Assembly (NCBI RefSeq): GCF_029265695.1
Contig: NZ_JAJUHW010000003.1
Location: 1 to 64,000, forward strand
Direction of reading: 5' to 3'
Source of the DNA: Gracilinema caldarium
Lineage (GTDB): Bacteria; Spirochaetota; Spirochaetia; Treponematales; Breznakiellaceae
DNA: 64,000 bases
Part shown: positions 46,517 to 54,790 of the stretch, in pieces
How the letters are laid out: the number at the start of each line of letters is the position of its first letter
How positions within the stretch are numbered: position 1 is the first letter of the stretch
Made by a program: the position numbers and the translations under genes
Notes under the pieces: generated by a model
Database searches by the model: none
What the model was told of the DNA's origin: nothing
Seen by the model: the letters and a program-made list of their open reading frames with translations, nothing else

Positions 46517-47821
46517 ATGGATTTTTCTTCTACCCGTTCAAAGGAAATAAAGGTCAGTTTCAGGGAAGCGGTAATGCACTGTCTCCCCCCAGATAGCGGC
46601 CTGTATGTGCCTGCTTCCATGGTAGATTTACGGCCCTTTTTCCTCTATATGGACAGCGAAACCTCCTATCCAGAATTGGTGGCTACGGTAGCTCCTGTTC
46701 TCCTGCAGGGTGAGTTAAACCCGATTTCTGCTGCCCGGGTTGCTGAAAGCGCCTTTAGTTTTGAACCAGAGCTGAAACTGCTCGATTCCAATTTGTCGGT
46801 TCTGGAACTCCATAACGGACCGACCGGAGTATTTAAGGATTTTGGTATTGCTTTTTTAGCCGCCGTCATGGAAGAGCTTTTGAAACCTTCCGGTTACGCA
46901 ATGACACTAACTGCCACCACCGGCCATACGGGAGCCAGCGTAGCCCATGCGTTCCAAGGGCGTGCTGGTATTACCGCGGTGATTCTGTATCCTCAAGGTC
47001 ATGTACGGGGGCTTGATCCTGCAACCTTTGTAAATAACGGCGGCAATATCCTTCCGATTCAAATAGAAGGGACCTTTGATGATTGCCAGCGGCTTATCCG
47101 CGATGCTTTCGAGGACCGGCCTTTTGCGGATCGTTATGGACTCACAAGTGCGAATACCATCAATGTGGGTCGGCTTCTGCCTCAGGCGTTCTATTTCCTG
47201 TATGCATTTATTAAAATTAAGAAAGAACTGCATGGGGACCTGCTCTTTAGCGTACCTTCCGGTAACTTTGGCAACCTGATCGCAGGGCTTTACGCCTGGA
47301 AATTCGGGCTTCCTACAAATGGCTTTATCGCTGCCATGAATGCCAATGATACCTTTGGTGATTTTTTCCGGGGCCAGTCTTTTGTACCCCATACACCGAT
47401 TCGGACCTTGTCCCGTTCCATGGATGTCGGGAACCCCTCCAACTATGAACGGCTTGCTGCTTTTTATAACGAAGCTCCGGCGGTCATGAAGCATATGGTG
47501 TATTCTGAAAAGGTTAATGATGAGGCTACTCTGGCTGCCATGGAACGGGCCTGGAAACGCTATGGCATTCACCTTGATCCCCACGGTGCGGTAGGTTTCG
47601 CTGCGGCGGAACGGCTACTTTCAGGTGATATCGAAGATGGTCATGTGGTGGTGCTTTCAACCGGGCATCCTGCAAAGTATTCGGATCTGGTTAAAAAAGT
47701 AACTGGAAAGGAACCGGTAACTTCCGAGACACTTCACAATTTGCAGAAAGAGACTAGTCCGGTGGCGGTGATTCCTGCCCGCTTGGACGCACTTGAGTCG
47801 GCTATCGCTGGAGCACTGTAG
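46517..47821 (+). CDS. thrC: threonine synthase
   Basis: 434 residues of the fold-II PLP family, in the short bacterial class. N-terminal domain DSGLYVPASMVDL, PLP-lysine motif ELHNGPTGVFKDFGIAFLAA, then TATTGHTGASVAHAFQG, SANTINVGRLLPQAFYFLYA and VPSGNFGNLIAGLYA. It makes threonine from O-phospho-L-homoserine. AAGGAG precedes the ATG. It stands alone, convergent with the alpha-glucan operon by 12 bp. Confidence 0.93.
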   Translation: MDFSSTRSKEIKVSFREAVMHCLPPDSGLYVPASMVDLRPFFLYMDSETSYPELVATVAPVLLQGELNPISAARVAESAFSFEPELKLLDSNLSVLELHNGPTGVFKDFGIAFLAAVMEELLKPSGYAMTLTATTGHTGASVAHAFQGRAGITAVILYPQGHVRGLDPATFVNNGGNILPIQIEGTFDDCQRLIRDAFEDRPFADRYGLTSANTINVGRLLPQAFYFLYAFIKIKKELHGDLLFSVPSGNFGNLIAGLYAWKFGLPTNGFIAAMNANDTFGDFFRGQSFVPHTPIRTLSRSMDVGNPSNYERLAAFYNEAPAVMKHMVYSEKVNDEATLAAMERAWKRYGIHLDPHGAVGFAAAERLLSGDIEDGHVVVLSTGHPAKYSDLVKKVTGKEPVTSETLHNLQKETSPVAVIPARLDALESAIAGAL

Positions 47822-47833
47822 GGTGAGCCTATT

Positions 47834-49003
47834 TCATAATTTTTTACCATCCGCTCTGCGATATGGGTTTTTGACATTTCGCAGGTAATTTTGGTACGCA
47901 GCGGCACTCTCGTAGTAATTATCGAGTCCTTTAAATGATGATGCCTCATCGCAGCGGTACAGTTCGAGGAGAGTCGGAAATAGAGGTGATTCCAAAGTTT
48001 CCTGGGTCCTTTGCAGCGGCAATCGGGGCAGCGCTGCGGGCATCATGTGGTTGCGGACCAAATACTGAACTTTTCCAATGGTAGATTCGCTGTAACCAAG
48101 GCGCTCAAGAAACTTTTTTGCCAGATCCGCTCCCAGTTCTGCGTGTCTATCGAAACGGCGGCCGCCGGAAGATTCTGCAAGGCTTTTACCTGAATCATGG
48201 AGGAGCAGTCCTAAAGAAAGAAGAAGGTCTGCTTTTTTTCGGTGCCGAAAGGTTTCCAATGTATGGCGCCACACGTTACCTTCGGGATGAAACTCCTTGG
48301 AATGATCCGTACGATCCATCATGGCTAGCTCGGGCCATAATAATGCCATAAGGCCTGTTCCCATGAGCAATGAAAAGCCCAGGTCCGGCCGATTGGATGT
48401 TAAAAGCAGCTCAAGATAGGTTCGCTCCATTTCAGCTGGTAACTTTTGCGGTTCTGCCTGAAGGACCACCTTTTTTAACAGGTCTGTTACGGGGTCGTGA
48501 AAATAGTAAGGACTTTCCAAAGCGCTGTATCGAGAAAGCATAACCGCAGTTTCGAGTACCAGGTATGGACCGATGTCCCGCTGTTTTGGAGAGTTGGCGT
48601 TTATATCCAGCCAAGGAATATTGTTAACCGTCCTTTGTTCTGGATTAAAAAACGCCTTTGCCATTTCTTTCAGAACCGGATACAAACCGGCATTATCGAT
48701 AAAAACCTGCCTGCCTTGATCAAAGGCTACGTTAAGAAGGGAATGCTCAAATACAGGGCTGTTATGGTTTTCTGCGCAATAAAAATAATATCGATGCTCT
48801 CCTAAGTCCGCCGCCGCATCCGCGATGATGGCGCCGGGGAAACGGAGGTTTTCAAACAATCTGCTGAGCTCTGGAAGATCTGCGGTTGTTTTAACAAAAG
48901 TAACAGGCCCTGGCGGTATATTAAAATACCGATCCAGGGCACTGAAACCAATTAATTCTGCAGTCCATCCCGCTTCCAGCAGTTCCCGGAAGGGGCTTTT
49001 CAT
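47834..49003 (-). CDS. HD-domain protein related to CCA-adding enzymes, NTase-degenerate
   Basis: 389 residues. The C-terminal half has an HD phosphohydrolase domain (NVWRHTLETFRHR, LLLHDSGKS with His269-Asp270, RFDRHAELGADLAKKFLERL). The middle (RDIGPYLVLETAVMLSRYSA and FHDPVTDLLKKV) recalls tRNA nucleotidyltransferases. However, the expected GG-x-x-RD and D-x-D catalytic motifs near the N-terminus are replaced (ELIGFSALDRYF, VTFVKTTADLPEL). So nucleotidyl transfer seems lost while the hydrolase site remains. The gene follows the GH13 gene by 2 nt in an operon. Confidence 0.65.
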   Translation of the reverse strand: MKSPFRELLEAGWTAELIGFSALDRYFNIPPGPVTFVKTTADLPELSRLFENLRFPGAIIADAAADLGEHRYYFYCAENHNSPVFEHSLLNVAFDQGRQVFIDNAGLYPVLKEMAKAFFNPEQRTVNNIPWLDINANSPKQRDIGPYLVLETAVMLSRYSALESPYYFHDPVTDLLKKVVLQAEPQKLPAEMERTYLELLLTSNRPDLGFSLLMGTGLMALLWPELAMMDRTDHSKEFHPEGNVWRHTLETFRHRKKADLLLSLGLLLHDSGKSLAESSGGRRFDRHAELGADLAKKFLERLGYSESTIGKVQYLVRNHMMPAALPRLPLQRTQETLESPLFPTLLELYRCDEASSFKGLDNYYESAAAYQNYLRNVKNPYRRADGKKL

Positions 49004-49005
49004 AG

Positions 49006-52000
49006 CTATTTCTGATCTGCCTTTGGTTTTGCCGCCTGAGCCTTAGGACTCTTCGGCTTTATACTGGCTGTCTTAGCTTTTGATTGAAGGGCCTGCAGCA
49101 GGGCCTCTACTTGATACCCTGAGCTATCAAGCGCTCCAGCTAATTCTTGGTAAATCTGGGCCACCAGTTCAAGCCGTTTGGTCCATTGACTTGTGTTTAG
49201 TTTAGAAGGATGAGGTACAGATACAACAGTCGCTGTATCTGTCTTTGTAGTTCCCTTATTCCGTGGGGGAATGGCTGCGTCATCAGACTCGATAGCCGCA
49301 ATTACTCCTCCGTAGAGCAGGACCTGTTCAAACCGTTCTTTGGTAAACCACAAAATGTCATTAAAGAGGTTAACTCCCAAAAATGCCTTAGAATCATCTG
49401 TGTTGAACAAATTGTGTGCGAGGGACAGACTTACCGATGGTCCCTGGAACAAGCTTGGGTCTTTGCTCATTGTTCTGCTTAAGATAAGCTTGAGCAATTC
49501 TACCACACGGTAACTTTCATCGGCGGGGAATCCTGCTTCCTGATAGCTTTCACGAAGTTTTCTGTCCAGGCACCAATGATCTACAAGGCGTCGGCCGTCA
49601 TCTCCTGAAGCCTCTTGTCCGATGATGCCCCGGCTCAGTGCTAATACCAAATAACCTGCAAGATAAGCCGAAATTCGTGGTTCCTGGCTTAATGTTTTAT
49701 AGATCGAATCAAGGTATGTTTTCCCAGCACTATGAAGGGCTGCGGGCGGTTTTTCAAAATATTCACCAAGTTTGATGAACCGCTGCATGGACTGGGCAAA
49801 TTCATTCCATACTTCTTCGGCTTCCAGGGCACTGTATTGCTGGTTCCGTTCAAAGGATTCATACCTGCCTGAGGCGCCATCGAGGTATTCACGGGCTATT
49901 CTGATGTACCGTAATGCTGGTTCCCGGAGGGTTTCTATAAATGGAGCAGCCTTTGGAGTTTTTTGGTCAGGGTTAAAGAAGGCATAAAAGCCGTTAAAGT
50001 ATGAGGGTTTTACCAGTTCTTTAAAAGCGCTATAGAGGTCCCGCAGGAAAAGATCCTGGAACGCTGCATGAAGGTCTGGAACGCCGCGGCCCGCCAGTTC
50101 TTCGTTGAGCCGTCTCCAATGACCAAGATTGTTATCTTCGATTTCATGTATATCTAAGAAAACCTGGGATTGATAGCCGTCCAGTGACACGAAAAGGCCT
50201 TGTTCAGAAATGTCTTTGCTGGATCTAATAAACCAACGGTCTGAGCGCTGCTCCCGCAGCAAGGTAAATGAATTGGGCTTATTGCTGAGTCCAAGGGCCT
50301 GGGCAAGGTTCCTTTGCAGGTTAACCTTAACTCCTCCAGGATCTTTCTGACTGCTGGGAACCGCATTGCGAATCCAGCCTGAAGCCCTGTGGAAGCTGTT
50401 GTTATAAAAAACCAGTGCCCTCTCTTCTCCCAGCCGGTTTGAATAGGCAAAGACATTCTCGTTCACTGAACCGTCGGGGGTATAGAGGTCGTAAAGAGCA
50501 AAGTTTTCGCTGCCTGCGAAAAGACGTCGCTTTTTAAGGAGTGGGAAAATCTCCCGCTCATGCCGGGCTATCAAGTCCTGGTCTGGGGCTTCTTCCCGGT
50601 AGGCCCTCCGGTACTCCATGCCATATTTTTCTTCAAAGCCTTCGATTTGTCCGTGGCCGAACATGGGGAGTCCGGGCATGGTCGCCATGAGGGTACAAAC
50701 GCCGAAATACTTATCTCCTCTGCCGAATTGTATTGCCGCCGTTTCTTCATCGGGGTTGTTCATAAAGTTAACAAAACGCTGGAGAATCTGGGGATCAAAT
50801 TCCAGGGTGTTCTTTATAGTTGCCCGGTATTTGGCATTTTCCTCCATTTTGAGCATGTTCATGAAAGCCGAATTGTATACCCGGTGCATTCCTAATGTGC
50901 GGACAAAGTAACCTTCCATCATCCAGAATGCTTCAGCCAACAGGAGTGTATCCGGTGCTTCTACGGCGCAGCGGTCGACCACTTCCCGCCAGAATTCATT
51001 GGGAAGACGTTTATCAAATTCTTCTTTCGTGAGCCCGTATTCTGCCCTGCTTGCAATGTCTCCTCCTGACCCCGGTTCGGGATACCACAGCCGCTGTATG
51101 TGTTTTTTTGCCAGCGTCATGGCTGCGTCGAACCGGACGATGGGGAACTGTTTACAGACCCCGATAATGGTTTGAATGACCGCTTCTCGTGCTTCGGGAT
51201 TCAGGAAGTCTATCTGGGCTGTATCATTCCAGGGCATCGACGTTCCATCGTTACCATGATAGATGTACCGGGTGTCTCCGGTACGGAAATCTACCCGTTT
51301 AAATACCACCGCCGCGTCCGAACGGCTGTAATAATGGTCTTCGAGATAAATACCAATACCTTCCCGATTTGATAGATTTTCTCCGTTAAAGGTATAGCTG
51401 GGGAAGGGAGAATGGCGGAGCTGGAGGAAGCGATCAGGATGTTCCATGACCCAGCGGGAGTCTATACCGGTGTGGTTCGGTACCATATCTGATCCGAGCC
51501 GTATTCCCCGCCATGCACAACGGTTCCTCAGGTTTTCTAATGCTTCCCAGCCGCCCAGTTCAGAGGCAATGTCATAATCATACAGGCTATATGCGCTGGC
51601 CGCTGCTTCTGGATTGCCGCAGCGCCGCTTTATTTCGCGGCTTGCCTGGCTTCGTTCCCAGAGTCCTATGAGCCACAGACCGGTAAAACCCCTCCGGGCT
51701 AACTCGTCCAGCTCTTCGTCGGGTATCTGATCCAGCCGGTGTATGGGCCTGTTGTATTTTTTTGAGAGCTGGTACAGCCAGACCAGGGTGCTTTTGGCCA
51801 TAAGAACCGTACGGGGCATCCATTCCCGGTCTTCCGAAAACCGTTCGTATTCATGTTCTAATTCATTGTAAATATACGCCCTTGTTGGCCCGGGGCCCAG
51901 ACCAAAGAAGCTGGGTTTTTCCTCTTCCTTTATAACATCGAGACTGGTTAGGAGCCGGATAAGATATTTTCCAATCAGGAGACCCCACTTTTTCCTGATG

Positions 52001-52779
52001 TATTCGAGCTGGCCCGTCAGTGAATAGGGTTCAGCCACGGCAGGGCTCCGCAATAGGTCCCAGAGATTCTGGTCATCGGGACCAAAGTGGGGAAGGGTGG
52101 CCAAGTGGGCCTTTATCACTTCCACTGCCCGATTGTATTCAGTAGCGGCGCTTAAGGTTTTATCGGAGAACATAAAAGCAAAGGGTTCAAAGGCGGGGTT
52201 TTCATTGGCAAGCCTGAGGAGTATCAGCTCTTCCAGGACTAAAAGCCGGTTCGGTATCCCTTCTTCGCTGTCCGCAAGGTAGTCTTCTATAGACTGTTTT
52301 CCTTCATATACCGATTGGGGAGGGAAAAGCTCCACAAAGGTATGGATGAGTTTATCCAACTTTTTTGTGCCAAGCTCTTTTTCCAAGGCTTGCATGGTGG
52401 TCTGTAAAACCGTAGGACAGGCCTTTTCCCGATACAGGGCTGTTACATAGTGGAGAATTTCGTCGATTAGGCCCATGGCATTGAGTTTGCCTGCTTTTAT
52501 GTACCGCTCGGGGTGTATTTCCGGATTGATCGTACTGTTTATTTTCTGGGCAAATTCCCGTACCGTTTTAAAGTCGGCGAATATTACATTGCCGCGGATT
52601 GCAAAAAGAGCTTTGTCTAGTCCGTAGGTATCCCGAACATCCTTAGCCACATGAAATTCTCTGGTGGCATAGAAAGTGTCTGCTCGGAAATTACTTCCGG
52701 GTATCCCGGTACTAGCAGGGTAATCAAGACCACTATTCTGCATTCGCAGATAATAAAGCTGTATTTCCAGTTCTTTCAT
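49006..52779 (-). CDS. GH13-family alpha-glucan hydrolase or transglycosylase with long extensions
   Basis: 1257 residues. The central alpha-amylase barrel (about 340-830) has region I SDMVPNHTG, region II FPIVRFDAAMTLAKKH (nucleophile Asp551), region III LLLAEAFWMM (acid/base Glu616) and region IV FVNFMNNPDEE (stabilising Asp). The 330 N-terminal residues and the 400 C-terminal residues are largely helical, with no named domain, and the C-terminus is Lys/Pro/Ala-rich (SPKAQAAKPKADQK). No signal peptide, so it is cytoplasmic. With malQ upstream it probably trims or rearranges storage or imported alpha-glucans. Confidence 0.8.
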   Translation of the reverse strand: MKELEIQLYYLRMQNSGLDYPASTGIPGSNFRADTFYATREFHVAKDVRDTYGLDKALFAIRGNVIFADFKTVREFAQKINSTINPEIHPERYIKAGKLNAMGLIDEILHYVTALYREKACPTVLQTTMQALEKELGTKKLDKLIHTFVELFPPQSVYEGKQSIEDYLADSEEGIPNRLLVLEELILLRLANENPAFEPFAFMFSDKTLSAATEYNRAVEVIKAHLATLPHFGPDDQNLWDLLRSPAVAEPYSLTGQLEYIRKKWGLLIGKYLIRLLTSLDVIKEEEKPSFFGLGPGPTRAYIYNELEHEYERFSEDREWMPRTVLMAKSTLVWLYQLSKKYNRPIHRLDQIPDEELDELARRGFTGLWLIGLWERSQASREIKRRCGNPEAAASAYSLYDYDIASELGGWEALENLRNRCAWRGIRLGSDMVPNHTGIDSRWVMEHPDRFLQLRHSPFPSYTFNGENLSNREGIGIYLEDHYYSRSDAAVVFKRVDFRTGDTRYIYHGNDGTSMPWNDTAQIDFLNPEAREAVIQTIIGVCKQFPIVRFDAAMTLAKKHIQRLWYPEPGSGGDIASRAEYGLTKEEFDKRLPNEFWREVVDRCAVEAPDTLLLAEAFWMMEGYFVRTLGMHRVYNSAFMNMLKMEENAKYRATIKNTLEFDPQILQRFVNFMNNPDEETAAIQFGRGDKYFGVCTLMATMPGLPMFGHGQIEGFEEKYGMEYRRAYREEAPDQDLIARHEREIFPLLKKRRLFAGSENFALYDLYTPDGSVNENVFAYSNRLGEERALVFYNNSFHRASGWIRNAVPSSQKDPGGVKVNLQRNLAQALGLSNKPNSFTLLREQRSDRWFIRSSKDISEQGLFVSLDGYQSQVFLDIHEIEDNNLGHWRRLNEELAGRGVPDLHAAFQDLFLRDLYSAFKELVKPSYFNGFYAFFNPDQKTPKAAPFIETLREPALRYIRIAREYLDGASGRYESFERNQQYSALEAEEVWNEFAQSMQRFIKLGEYFEKPPAALHSAGKTYLDSIYKTLSQEPRISAYLAGYLVLALSRGIIGQEASGDDGRRLVDHWCLDRKLRESYQEAGFPADESYRVVELLKLILSRTMSKDPSLFQGPSVSLSLAHNLFNTDDSKAFLGVNLFNDILWFTKERFEQVLLYGGVIAAIESDDAAIPPRNKGTTKTDTATVVSVPHPSKLNTSQWTKRLELVAQIYQELAGALDSSGYQVEALLQALQSKAKTASIKPKSPKAQAAKPKADQK

Positions 52780-52816: not shown

Positions 52817-54790
52817 TCAGCGTTTAGATGTAAGATCCTTACAGCTCTTAATGAGCTCCTTATCTGCTTGCAGCTGTTCTATTGTGCCAGGCAGCCGGTA
52901 TGTCCAGTTAAAATCGTTGACACTTCCAGGCACATTGATGCGTTCATCCTTAGGATTCGGTGAATACCACCGCGGGGATAGATGCAACAAATCCTGGATT
53001 TGGAATATGCAGAATCGGGATGTCGATTTTATAATGTGACCCAAGAGAATGCGGGCCGTATCTGGATTATACCTGTCTTGCAACGATGGTTCGTTAAGAA
53101 ACTGCTTAAACTGTTCCCGGTCGACTTCGTTTTCCCACCATTGCCGGACCGTGGATGTATCATGAACTGCGGGAGTACAAACAGAAAGTTCTGGATATTC
53201 ATTAAAAGGAATATAGGGCTCTCCCCATTCTCCCCAGCGCCGGGTCCACCGGACAATTTTAAGGCCTAAAATTCCCAATTCCTGTAGAACTTTAGGGACG
53301 CAGGGGGGAATCGCTCCTAAATCTTCTGCGCAGGGAATCATACTGGTAGAAGATGTAAGGACCGACAAAATGGTACGTCCCTGATCTTCCCATAATTGTT
53401 CCGATTCTCTGCGTTTCTGTTGTATGAGACTGTCCAGATTCCGTCGTTCCGTCTCGGATAAGGTAGGAAATGCCCTGGTGTCCCAATATGTCCAGGTTGG
53501 GCAATAGGTCCCGTCTCCCTGGGGTACTAAAACCCTGTTTCTCCAAACCTTCTGAAAGTATTCTTTAAGGAGGGGATGTATATCGAGCTGTTCAATATCA
53601 ATTTCCCCCGTAATTTCGTTTTTAAAAAGCCAGAGTTCTTCGTTACCAATCTGGTTCAATGCTTTAACAGCTGCCTTCCGTACTGCCGCCTCGGTCGCAG
53701 GGTCTCCCTTCATAGCTTCATACATTTCTGAGCTGGGAATATGGGGTTCAGAAAGCCAGCGAATTCGGGCGCTGTCGAATCCCAGATTCATAAGTTCCTC
53801 TGTTGTTATAGGTACCGAAGGAACAAAACGGCCAAGGGTGGCTGAAATATCACGGCGGGAGCTCGACCAGATACGAAAGAATCCCAGCACATGGTCTATT
53901 CGGTATGCACTGTAGTAGCGGTCAGCTAGTCTGAGCCGGTCGATCCACCAGGAATAGCCAGCCTTTGCTAAGGTTCCCCAGTTATAAGTAGGGAACTGCC
54001 AGTTTTGTCCCAGAGGATTAAGCGGTTCAGGAGGCGCCCCTGCGGACAGATCCCGGTTAAAAAATTCACTATGGGCCCAGACATCTGCCGAATCTTCGTT
54101 CATCAATATGGGGATATCCCCTTTGAGTATGAGGCCCATGTCATTGATTATTTTTGCTGCCTGGCGGAATTGCCGGTCCAGAGCTTCCTGTACCCATACC
54201 CAGAAAAGATGCTCTTCGTGATATTCGGGATTGTTCCAGAAGCTATCGAGGGTTTTTGCGTCTATGTCTCTGAATTGCTTCCATTCTTTCCAATGGGCTC
54301 CGTGGTTAAGATCCTTGAGCCTGCGGTACACTGCATAATCTTTTATCCAGGGATTTTCTAAAATCCATGAATGGAGGGGTTGGCCTGCTTTTGCTGCAGC
54401 AAGGATGTCATGTTTCTTTTTATTAAAGATATCTCGAAGCAAGGCTAATTTTGCATCCTGCAAGGGGCCGTATGCAAAACGATCGAGCCCTTCGAATCGG
54501 TCCTTTATTTCTTGTAATTGCTTTTCAAATCCGTGGCTTTCCGGTAAGTCTCCGATACGGAGATAGATGGGATGGAGTGCAAAAGCGGTGAGTGCGCTGT
54601 ACGGCGAACTCTGGAACCCAGAATCGTTGACCGGTAACAGTTGAATCAGCTCTACTCCAATAGCCTTACAGAACTGAGCCAATTCTACCAAATCAGGGAA
54701 TTCTCCAACCCCAATACTCTTATTGCTTCTAAGAGCACCGAGCGGAACGGCAATCCCTGTGAGCCTTTTTTTTGGGTCTAAAATACGCAT
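52817..54790 (-). CDS. malQ: 4-alpha-glucanotransferase
   Basis: 657 residues of GH77. Start LGALRSNKSIGVGEFPDLVE, then QLLPVNDSGFQSSPYSALTA, YSAYRIDHVLGFFRIW (catalytic Asp) and MIPCAEDLGAIPPCV (acid/base Glu region). LKIVRWTRRWGEWGEPYIP and VCTPAVHDTSTVRQWWE match the C-terminal barrel. It disproportionates malto-oligosaccharides in the cytoplasm. GGGGAGGGGG precedes ATG 54790. First gene of the malQ-GH13-HD operon. Confidence 0.93.
   Translation of the reverse strand: MRILDPKKRLTGIAVPLGALRSNKSIGVGEFPDLVELAQFCKAIGVELIQLLPVNDSGFQSSPYSALTAFALHPIYLRIGDLPESHGFEKQLQEIKDRFEGLDRFAYGPLQDAKLALLRDIFNKKKHDILAAAKAGQPLHSWILENPWIKDYAVYRRLKDLNHGAHWKEWKQFRDIDAKTLDSFWNNPEYHEEHLFWVWVQEALDRQFRQAAKIINDMGLILKGDIPILMNEDSADVWAHSEFFNRDLSAGAPPEPLNPLGQNWQFPTYNWGTLAKAGYSWWIDRLRLADRYYSAYRIDHVLGFFRIWSSSRRDISATLGRFVPSVPITTEELMNLGFDSARIRWLSEPHIPSSEMYEAMKGDPATEAAVRKAAVKALNQIGNEELWLFKNEITGEIDIEQLDIHPLLKEYFQKVWRNRVLVPQGDGTYCPTWTYWDTRAFPTLSETERRNLDSLIQQKRRESEQLWEDQGRTILSVLTSSTSMIPCAEDLGAIPPCVPKVLQELGILGLKIVRWTRRWGEWGEPYIPFNEYPELSVCTPAVHDTSTVRQWWENEVDREQFKQFLNEPSLQDRYNPDTARILLGHIIKSTSRFCIFQIQDLLHLSPRWYSPNPKDERINVPGSVNDFNWTYRLPGTIEQLQADKELIKSCKDLTSKR

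Follow-up and report, generated by a model that had tools for sequence, protein, structure and literature searches.

The DxD, RRD, EDxxR and GG motifs together define the class II transferase, and in bifunctional class II tRNA nucleotidyltransferases, which add CCA, the transferase is joined to an HD domain. The two activities have been separated in the CCA enzyme of Mycobacterium tuberculosis: the study (PMC10673834) states that a DLD-to-ALA change abolishes CCA addition while metal-dependent hydrolysis of pNPP stays, that H298A abolishes pNPP phosphohydrolase activity, and that the HD phosphohydrolase is independent of the transferase site. Among HD proteins, the ligand set H...HD...H...H...D marks a dinuclear site, which is also found in YqeK and HD-GYP proteins (PMC8177086, in part), and an Arg at position -3 relative to the first HD His is typical of HD phosphohydrolases (PMC8177086, figure legend). 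Our search of the literature, which covered titles and abstract openings of mostly open-access papers, returned no published description of an HD-bearing paralogue whose nucleotidyltransferase (NTase) is dead.

We found such a protein in Gracilinema caldarium. The window is the whole stretch of DNA that was analysed, 64,000 nucleotides of contig NZ_JAJUHW010000003.1, and includes the following features:

47834..49003, minus strand: NTase-dead, HD-bearing paralogue of class II tRNA nucleotidyltransferases, 389 aa, ATG start (the window protein)
48644..49003, minus strand: degenerate nucleotidyltransferase head, residues about 1-120 (profile, hhalign and fold matches)
48899..48907, minus strand: site aligned with the catalytic DxD, P33-V34-T35 (hhalign register)
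48290..48643, minus strand: linker plus neck, residues 121-238; PolyA_pol_RNAbd matches below threshold at 195-227 (Pfam, hhalign)
47924..48289, minus strand: HD domain, residues about 239-360, with ligands H247, H269, D270, H287, H319 and D352 and HPEG at 239-242
48194..48199, minus strand: His269-Asp270 dyad, kept in 85 of 85 relatives
49006..52779, minus strand: GH13-like protein, 1257 aa, directly upstream, a neighbour without demonstrated functional partnership
52817..54790, minus strand: malQ, 4-alpha-glucanotransferase GH77, a neighbour
46517..47821, plus strand: threonine synthase gene thrC, convergent, a neighbour that accompanies the HD paralogue more widely

The original prediction described this reading frame as a relative of CCA-adding enzymes that had lost its transferase motifs and kept an HD motif. 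Its coordinates, ATG start and length of 389 aa hold, and the His269-Asp270 motif is correctly placed, lying inside a Pfam HD domain (PF01966, residues 256-323) that scores 25 bits against a cut-off of 22. Pfam gave no match to the PolyA_pol head in the window protein, and the best NCBIfam match is the model of actinobacterial CCA enzymes (TIGR02692, residues 187-320, E 1.8e-14), with a score of 53.3 bits where the cut-off is 438.8. The genome encodes two further proteins that have the PolyA_pol head (E 3e-40 and 4e-37 in Pfam): L001, which combines the head with RNA-binding, HD and C-terminal families, and L002, which has no HD. This makes the window protein a third, divergent paralogue.

Kinship with CCA-adding enzymes is borne out by the fold of the whole chain and by profile matches to tRNA nucleotidyltransferases. 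An AlphaFold model made with a 30-sequence alignment (A1) reached a pLDDT of 89.7 and a pTM of 0.91. Comparison of this predicted structure with tRNA nucleotidyltransferases, a check that the original prediction had proposed, placed HD-bearing tRNA processing enzymes at the top of the VIA-align ranking (best solved match 3wfo: Z 22.3, rmsd 4.4, 337 aligned residues, model 2-387), followed by other CCA and poly(A) enzymes; the structural match to Rel has a Z of 7.2 versus 22.3 for the tRNA enzymes. Residues 1-228 also align with FAM46 proteins (Z 8.3), which are nucleotidyltransferases. A 26-row profile (A3) searched against the PDB matched head and neck of the CCA enzyme 1miv (E 2.6e-4) and neck and HD of 3wfp (E 6.6e-15), and hhalign of A1 against an alignment of 11 spirochaete CCA enzymes gave an E of 2.6e-20. 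The head-neck-body fold of class II tRNA nucleotidyltransferases is therefore present in the window protein, as seen in the 3wfo match and the 1miv profile. In a tree of neck and HD, 35 relatives all fall on one side of the branch that parts them from 12 CCA enzymes (support 83/82); the bootstrap values are not settled, and L157, E. coli and L151 sit on long branches.

Among described proteins, the HD-bearing tRNA processing enzyme deposited as "Poly A polymerase" (3wfo-3wfs) shares the whole-chain fold, the neck and the HD domain with the window protein, which differs in lacking DxD and the other class II transferase motifs. The actinobacterial CCA tRNA nucleotidyltransferase (TIGR02692; M. 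tuberculosis Rv3907c) has a similar neck and HD domain, but the transferase site is lost in the window protein. E. coli Cca, a fused CCA tRNA nucleotidyltransferase/phosphohydrolase, has the HPE, H, HD, H and H positions as in the window protein, whereas the G of HPEG and every transferase motif differ, and the column of the last HD ligand is T in the alignment, which leaves five of the six ligands. By analogy with these enzymes, the window protein most likely descends from a tRNA nucleotidyltransferase and works as an HD phosphohydrolase, much like the HD half of a CCA enzyme.

The loss of the N-terminal transferase motifs, the second part of the original prediction, extends to the whole group of relatives. 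We collected 93 relatives, of which 8 were dropped as copies, and left out of the CCA set two sequences for which a wrong frame had been picked (L155, L174), two short CCA genes (L154, L162) and the other proteins with a PolyA_pol head. In one joint alignment, complete DxD, RRD, EDxxR and GG motifs are present in none of the 85 distinct relatives and in all 12 CCA enzymes (11 from spirochaetes and one from E. coli); in the DxD column, three relatives are gapped and in one the second position alone is Asp. The letters RRD occur elsewhere within the first 200 residues of four of the 85 relatives and in the aligned columns of none. In hhalign of A1 with the 11 CCA enzymes, the catalytic D-x-D falls on P33-V34-T35 of the window protein. 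Pfam recognizes PolyA_pol at E up to 0.01 in 4/26 relatives. Far relatives from another class have a recognizable head, with PolyA_pol above cut-off in L175 and sub-threshold in L176 and L177, and these too are without DxD. Judged by sequence, the transferase site of the window protein is dead and nucleotides would no longer be added; because the features that define the transferase were looked for and are absent, the protein is not a CCA enzyme.

Conservation is highest in the HD half. All six ligands (H247, H269, D270, H287, H319 and D352) and H239-P-E-G242 are kept in 85/85 relatives, K236 in 83/85 and K256 in 84/85, although the relatives were collected with a profile weighted most on the HD half, so that part of this conservation reflects how they were chosen. 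Pfam finds the HD domain (PF01966) in 26/26 relatives at E up to 0.01. The same six ligands are present in nine of the 12 CCA enzymes, with most or all missing from L151 and L157. The Arg at -3 from the first ligand His is absent in the window protein, where V244 stands three residues before H247. The part that follows the last HD ligand is short, with a median of 43 residues in the relatives versus 90 in CCA enzymes, and the C-terminal family PF13735, which is present in the CCA enzyme of the same genome, was found in 0/26 relatives; for these two reasons, whole tRNA may not be bound as it is by CCA enzymes. The CCA enzyme of the same genome also has an intact HD domain, so tRNA-end repair by the paralogue would be redundant.

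Within the order (241 genomes), hand counts of matches to the A1 profile (30 sequences, E up to 1e-39) gave relatives in 44/95 genomes of the window's own family (f1), 1/1 of f2, 0/92 of f3, 30/30 of f4 and 20/23 of f5; many genomes are incomplete, which makes absences in f1 uncertain. A search of the window's taxonomic family matched 49 of 58 genomes, many of the matches being the CCA enzyme at residues 185-321. Across the phylum, 40 of 344 genomes match at E up to 1e-22, although at least one match (G498, model 157-326) could be a CCA enzyme. Because the window's class is not the only one with matches in the phylum, the family is old, and we conclude that this is an old, Spirochaetota-wide paralogue. 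A genome-wide pattern scan, which required near-identical peptides, gave three loci, all titled as spirochaetes, and none outside Spirochaetota. The whole-protein dN/dS is 0.11 to L003 and 0.17 to L007. In these two pairs, the only ones for which both parts could be computed (several L004 values were incomputable), dN/dS is 0.06 (L003) and 0.08 (L007) for body and HD versus 0.28 (L003, on very few changes) and 0.35 (L007) for the head. Going by these ratios and by the spread of relatives over four families of the order, this is a real gene under purifying selection, conserved beyond chance.

A role as an HD phosphohydrolase, which the original prediction had suggested, is probably correct, given the intact HD ligands and the descent from CCA enzymes. 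In the scheme that we propose, a bifunctional, CCA-adding class II tRNA nucleotidyltransferase with an HD domain would have given rise to the paralogue early in Spirochaetota. The head would have retained its fold and lost all catalytic motifs, ending nucleotide addition, while the HD domain, with its full two-metal site and the K/HPEG signature, would act as a metal-dependent phosphohydrolase or phosphodiesterase. The dead head and the neck may serve as a scaffold or as a grip on nucleotides or RNA. By analogy with the HD half of the E. coli and Mycobacterium CCA enzymes, the substrates may, more tentatively, be 2',3'-cyclic, 2'- or 3'-phosphates of nucleotides or RNA 3' ends. The M. tuberculosis DLD-to-ALA mutant, as described in PMC10673834, is a direct precedent and the laboratory counterpart of the window protein. 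With about even confidence, we read the window protein as a metal-dependent phosphohydrolase or phosphodiesterase that stems from a class II tRNA nucleotidyltransferase, would act on nucleotides or RNA ends, and is not tied to glucan metabolism. A narrower version is possible but more doubtful: a dedicated spirochaete enzyme that arose when a CCA enzyme was duplicated and one copy had its transferase half killed, and that removes cyclic or terminal phosphates from nucleotides or the ends of RNA, so that two ancestral jobs are split between two proteins. The window protein is nature's equivalent of the laboratory mutant in which the two CCA-enzyme activities come apart, kept over much of the phylum; if active, it would offer a way to ask what the HD domain of these enzymes does once freed from tRNA finishing. 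Such proteins should not be annotated as polymerases or CCA enzymes.

A signalling hydrolase, a role that the original prediction had also named, is the alternative that fares best, although we think it unlikely. Here, the dead head would sense a nucleotide and gate an HD domain that degrades an alarmone or a cyclic or dinucleotide messenger, as in GlnD or Rel, which likewise pair an NTase with an HD domain. The pairing of NTase and HD, the moderate purifying selection on the head and the occurrence of dinuclear-type ligands in YqeK and HD-GYP (PMC8177086, in part) are all consistent with this, as are weak NCBIfam matches of GlnD to the HD part. The score for the GlnD uridylyltransferase equivalog is nevertheless far below cut-off (33.9 bits versus 631) and covers neck and HD only, the Rel match falls far short of that to the tRNA enzymes, and we recognized no recurrent signalling neighbour, apart from a convergent HD-GYP-like gene seen by eye beside some f4 loci.

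A second alternative, a catalytically idle RNA-binding or scaffold protein in which HD is structural only, is somewhat less probable still. In its favour, an HrpB-type RNA helicase gene lies directly upstream in 7/17 f4 loci (L066, L067, L070, L081, L082, L083 and L093; checked with Pfam in one locus, called by clustering in the others), but retention of the six metal ligands in every relative, in what is the best conserved half of the protein, argues against an idle site. HrpB is an RNA-linked neighbour of the HD paralogue. No constant operon partner was found among the neighbours; different genes recur in different lineages. PurH is directly upstream of far relatives in 5/6 f21 loci (L141, L142, L146, L147 and L148; Pfam-checked in two, the rest called from the first residues), DUF4954 is upstream in loci that, like these, lie outside the window's class (Pfam-checked in two), and convergent thrC recurs in several families.

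The original prediction had set the gene in a malQ-GH13 operon and derived from this a role in sugar or nucleotide-sugar metabolism. The first of these stands for the window, where the HD paralogue starts two bases after the GH13-like gene on the same strand, with malQ further upstream, but the arrangement is local to part of one family. A GH13-like gene is directly upstream in 12/30 f1 loci (L006-L035, flanks up to 1.5 kb) and adjacent in 0/31 loci of f2, f4 and f5, lying more than 4 kb upstream in L065; in four of nine longer f1 loci, a gene for an SppA-type peptidase (Pfam-checked in one of the four) stands between. The GH13-like gene was found in 226/241 genomes of the order, including 91/92 of f3, where by hand count it is present and the HD paralogue absent, and conversely six genomes have the HD paralogue without a GH13-like match, four of them less than 90% complete (G192, G231, G132 and G138) and two that are exceptions to this (G009 and G080). 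The best promoter-like pair on the strand precedes malQ, although the promoter and terminator scans as a whole were not above shuffles. Given the neighbourhood and co-occurrence results, the glucan operon says little about function; the metabolic role drawn from it is not supported, nor is a link of the HD paralogue to glucan metabolism. On the same grounds we rejected, as improbable, the idea that the HD domain hydrolyses sugar phosphates or nucleotide sugars for the malQ-GH13 operon. The Pfam alpha-amylase match of the 1257-aa GH13-like protein itself is only short and weak (29.1 bits, residues 356-448), and the protein is divergent yet nearly universal in the order.

A mixed-valent diiron oxygenase of HD type, like PhnZ and TmpB, is highly improbable. 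These oxygenases share the HD fold (Z 10.3 for PhnZ and 9.5 for TmpB) and the dinuclear site with the window protein, the HD part alone aligning with PhnZ over 126 residues (rmsd 2.9, 22% identity), and the ligand set is that of known HD oxygenases (PMC8177086, in part). The likeness is, however, limited to the HD part, while tRNA enzymes match over the full length and score far better (Z 22.3); the sequence-profile search gave no PhnZ match, and ordinary CCA enzymes have the same ligands.

The least probable alternative, a still active nucleotidyltransferase with its catalytic acids in another register, could draw on the kept head fold and on D24, D62 and D103, which are well conserved in the head of the near family, but D24 and D103, which are the head's most strongly conserved acids, correspond in the alignment to conserved Asp residues of CCA enzymes that lie outside DxD, D62 is lost in the far relatives, and RRD and EDxxR are lost too. 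Conserved catalytic Asp residues in a different register would have spoken against the original prediction; what appears to be conserved family-wide is confined to inherited structural acidic positions, and a new catalytic register in the head is unlikely from the alignment.

Some CCA enzymes of the phylum are themselves altered. The CCA-enzyme gene of G433, a single-contig genome, goes out of frame after about 199 residues (L154), through a break or a sequencing error. Compensation by the paralogue for a CCA enzyme without an HD site was considered and shows no clear pattern: the HD ligands of the CCA enzyme are degenerate in G067 (L151), a genome of about 1.1 Mb that matches neither the HD paralogue nor the GH13-like gene, and lost in G373 (L157), where the paralogue keeps all six.
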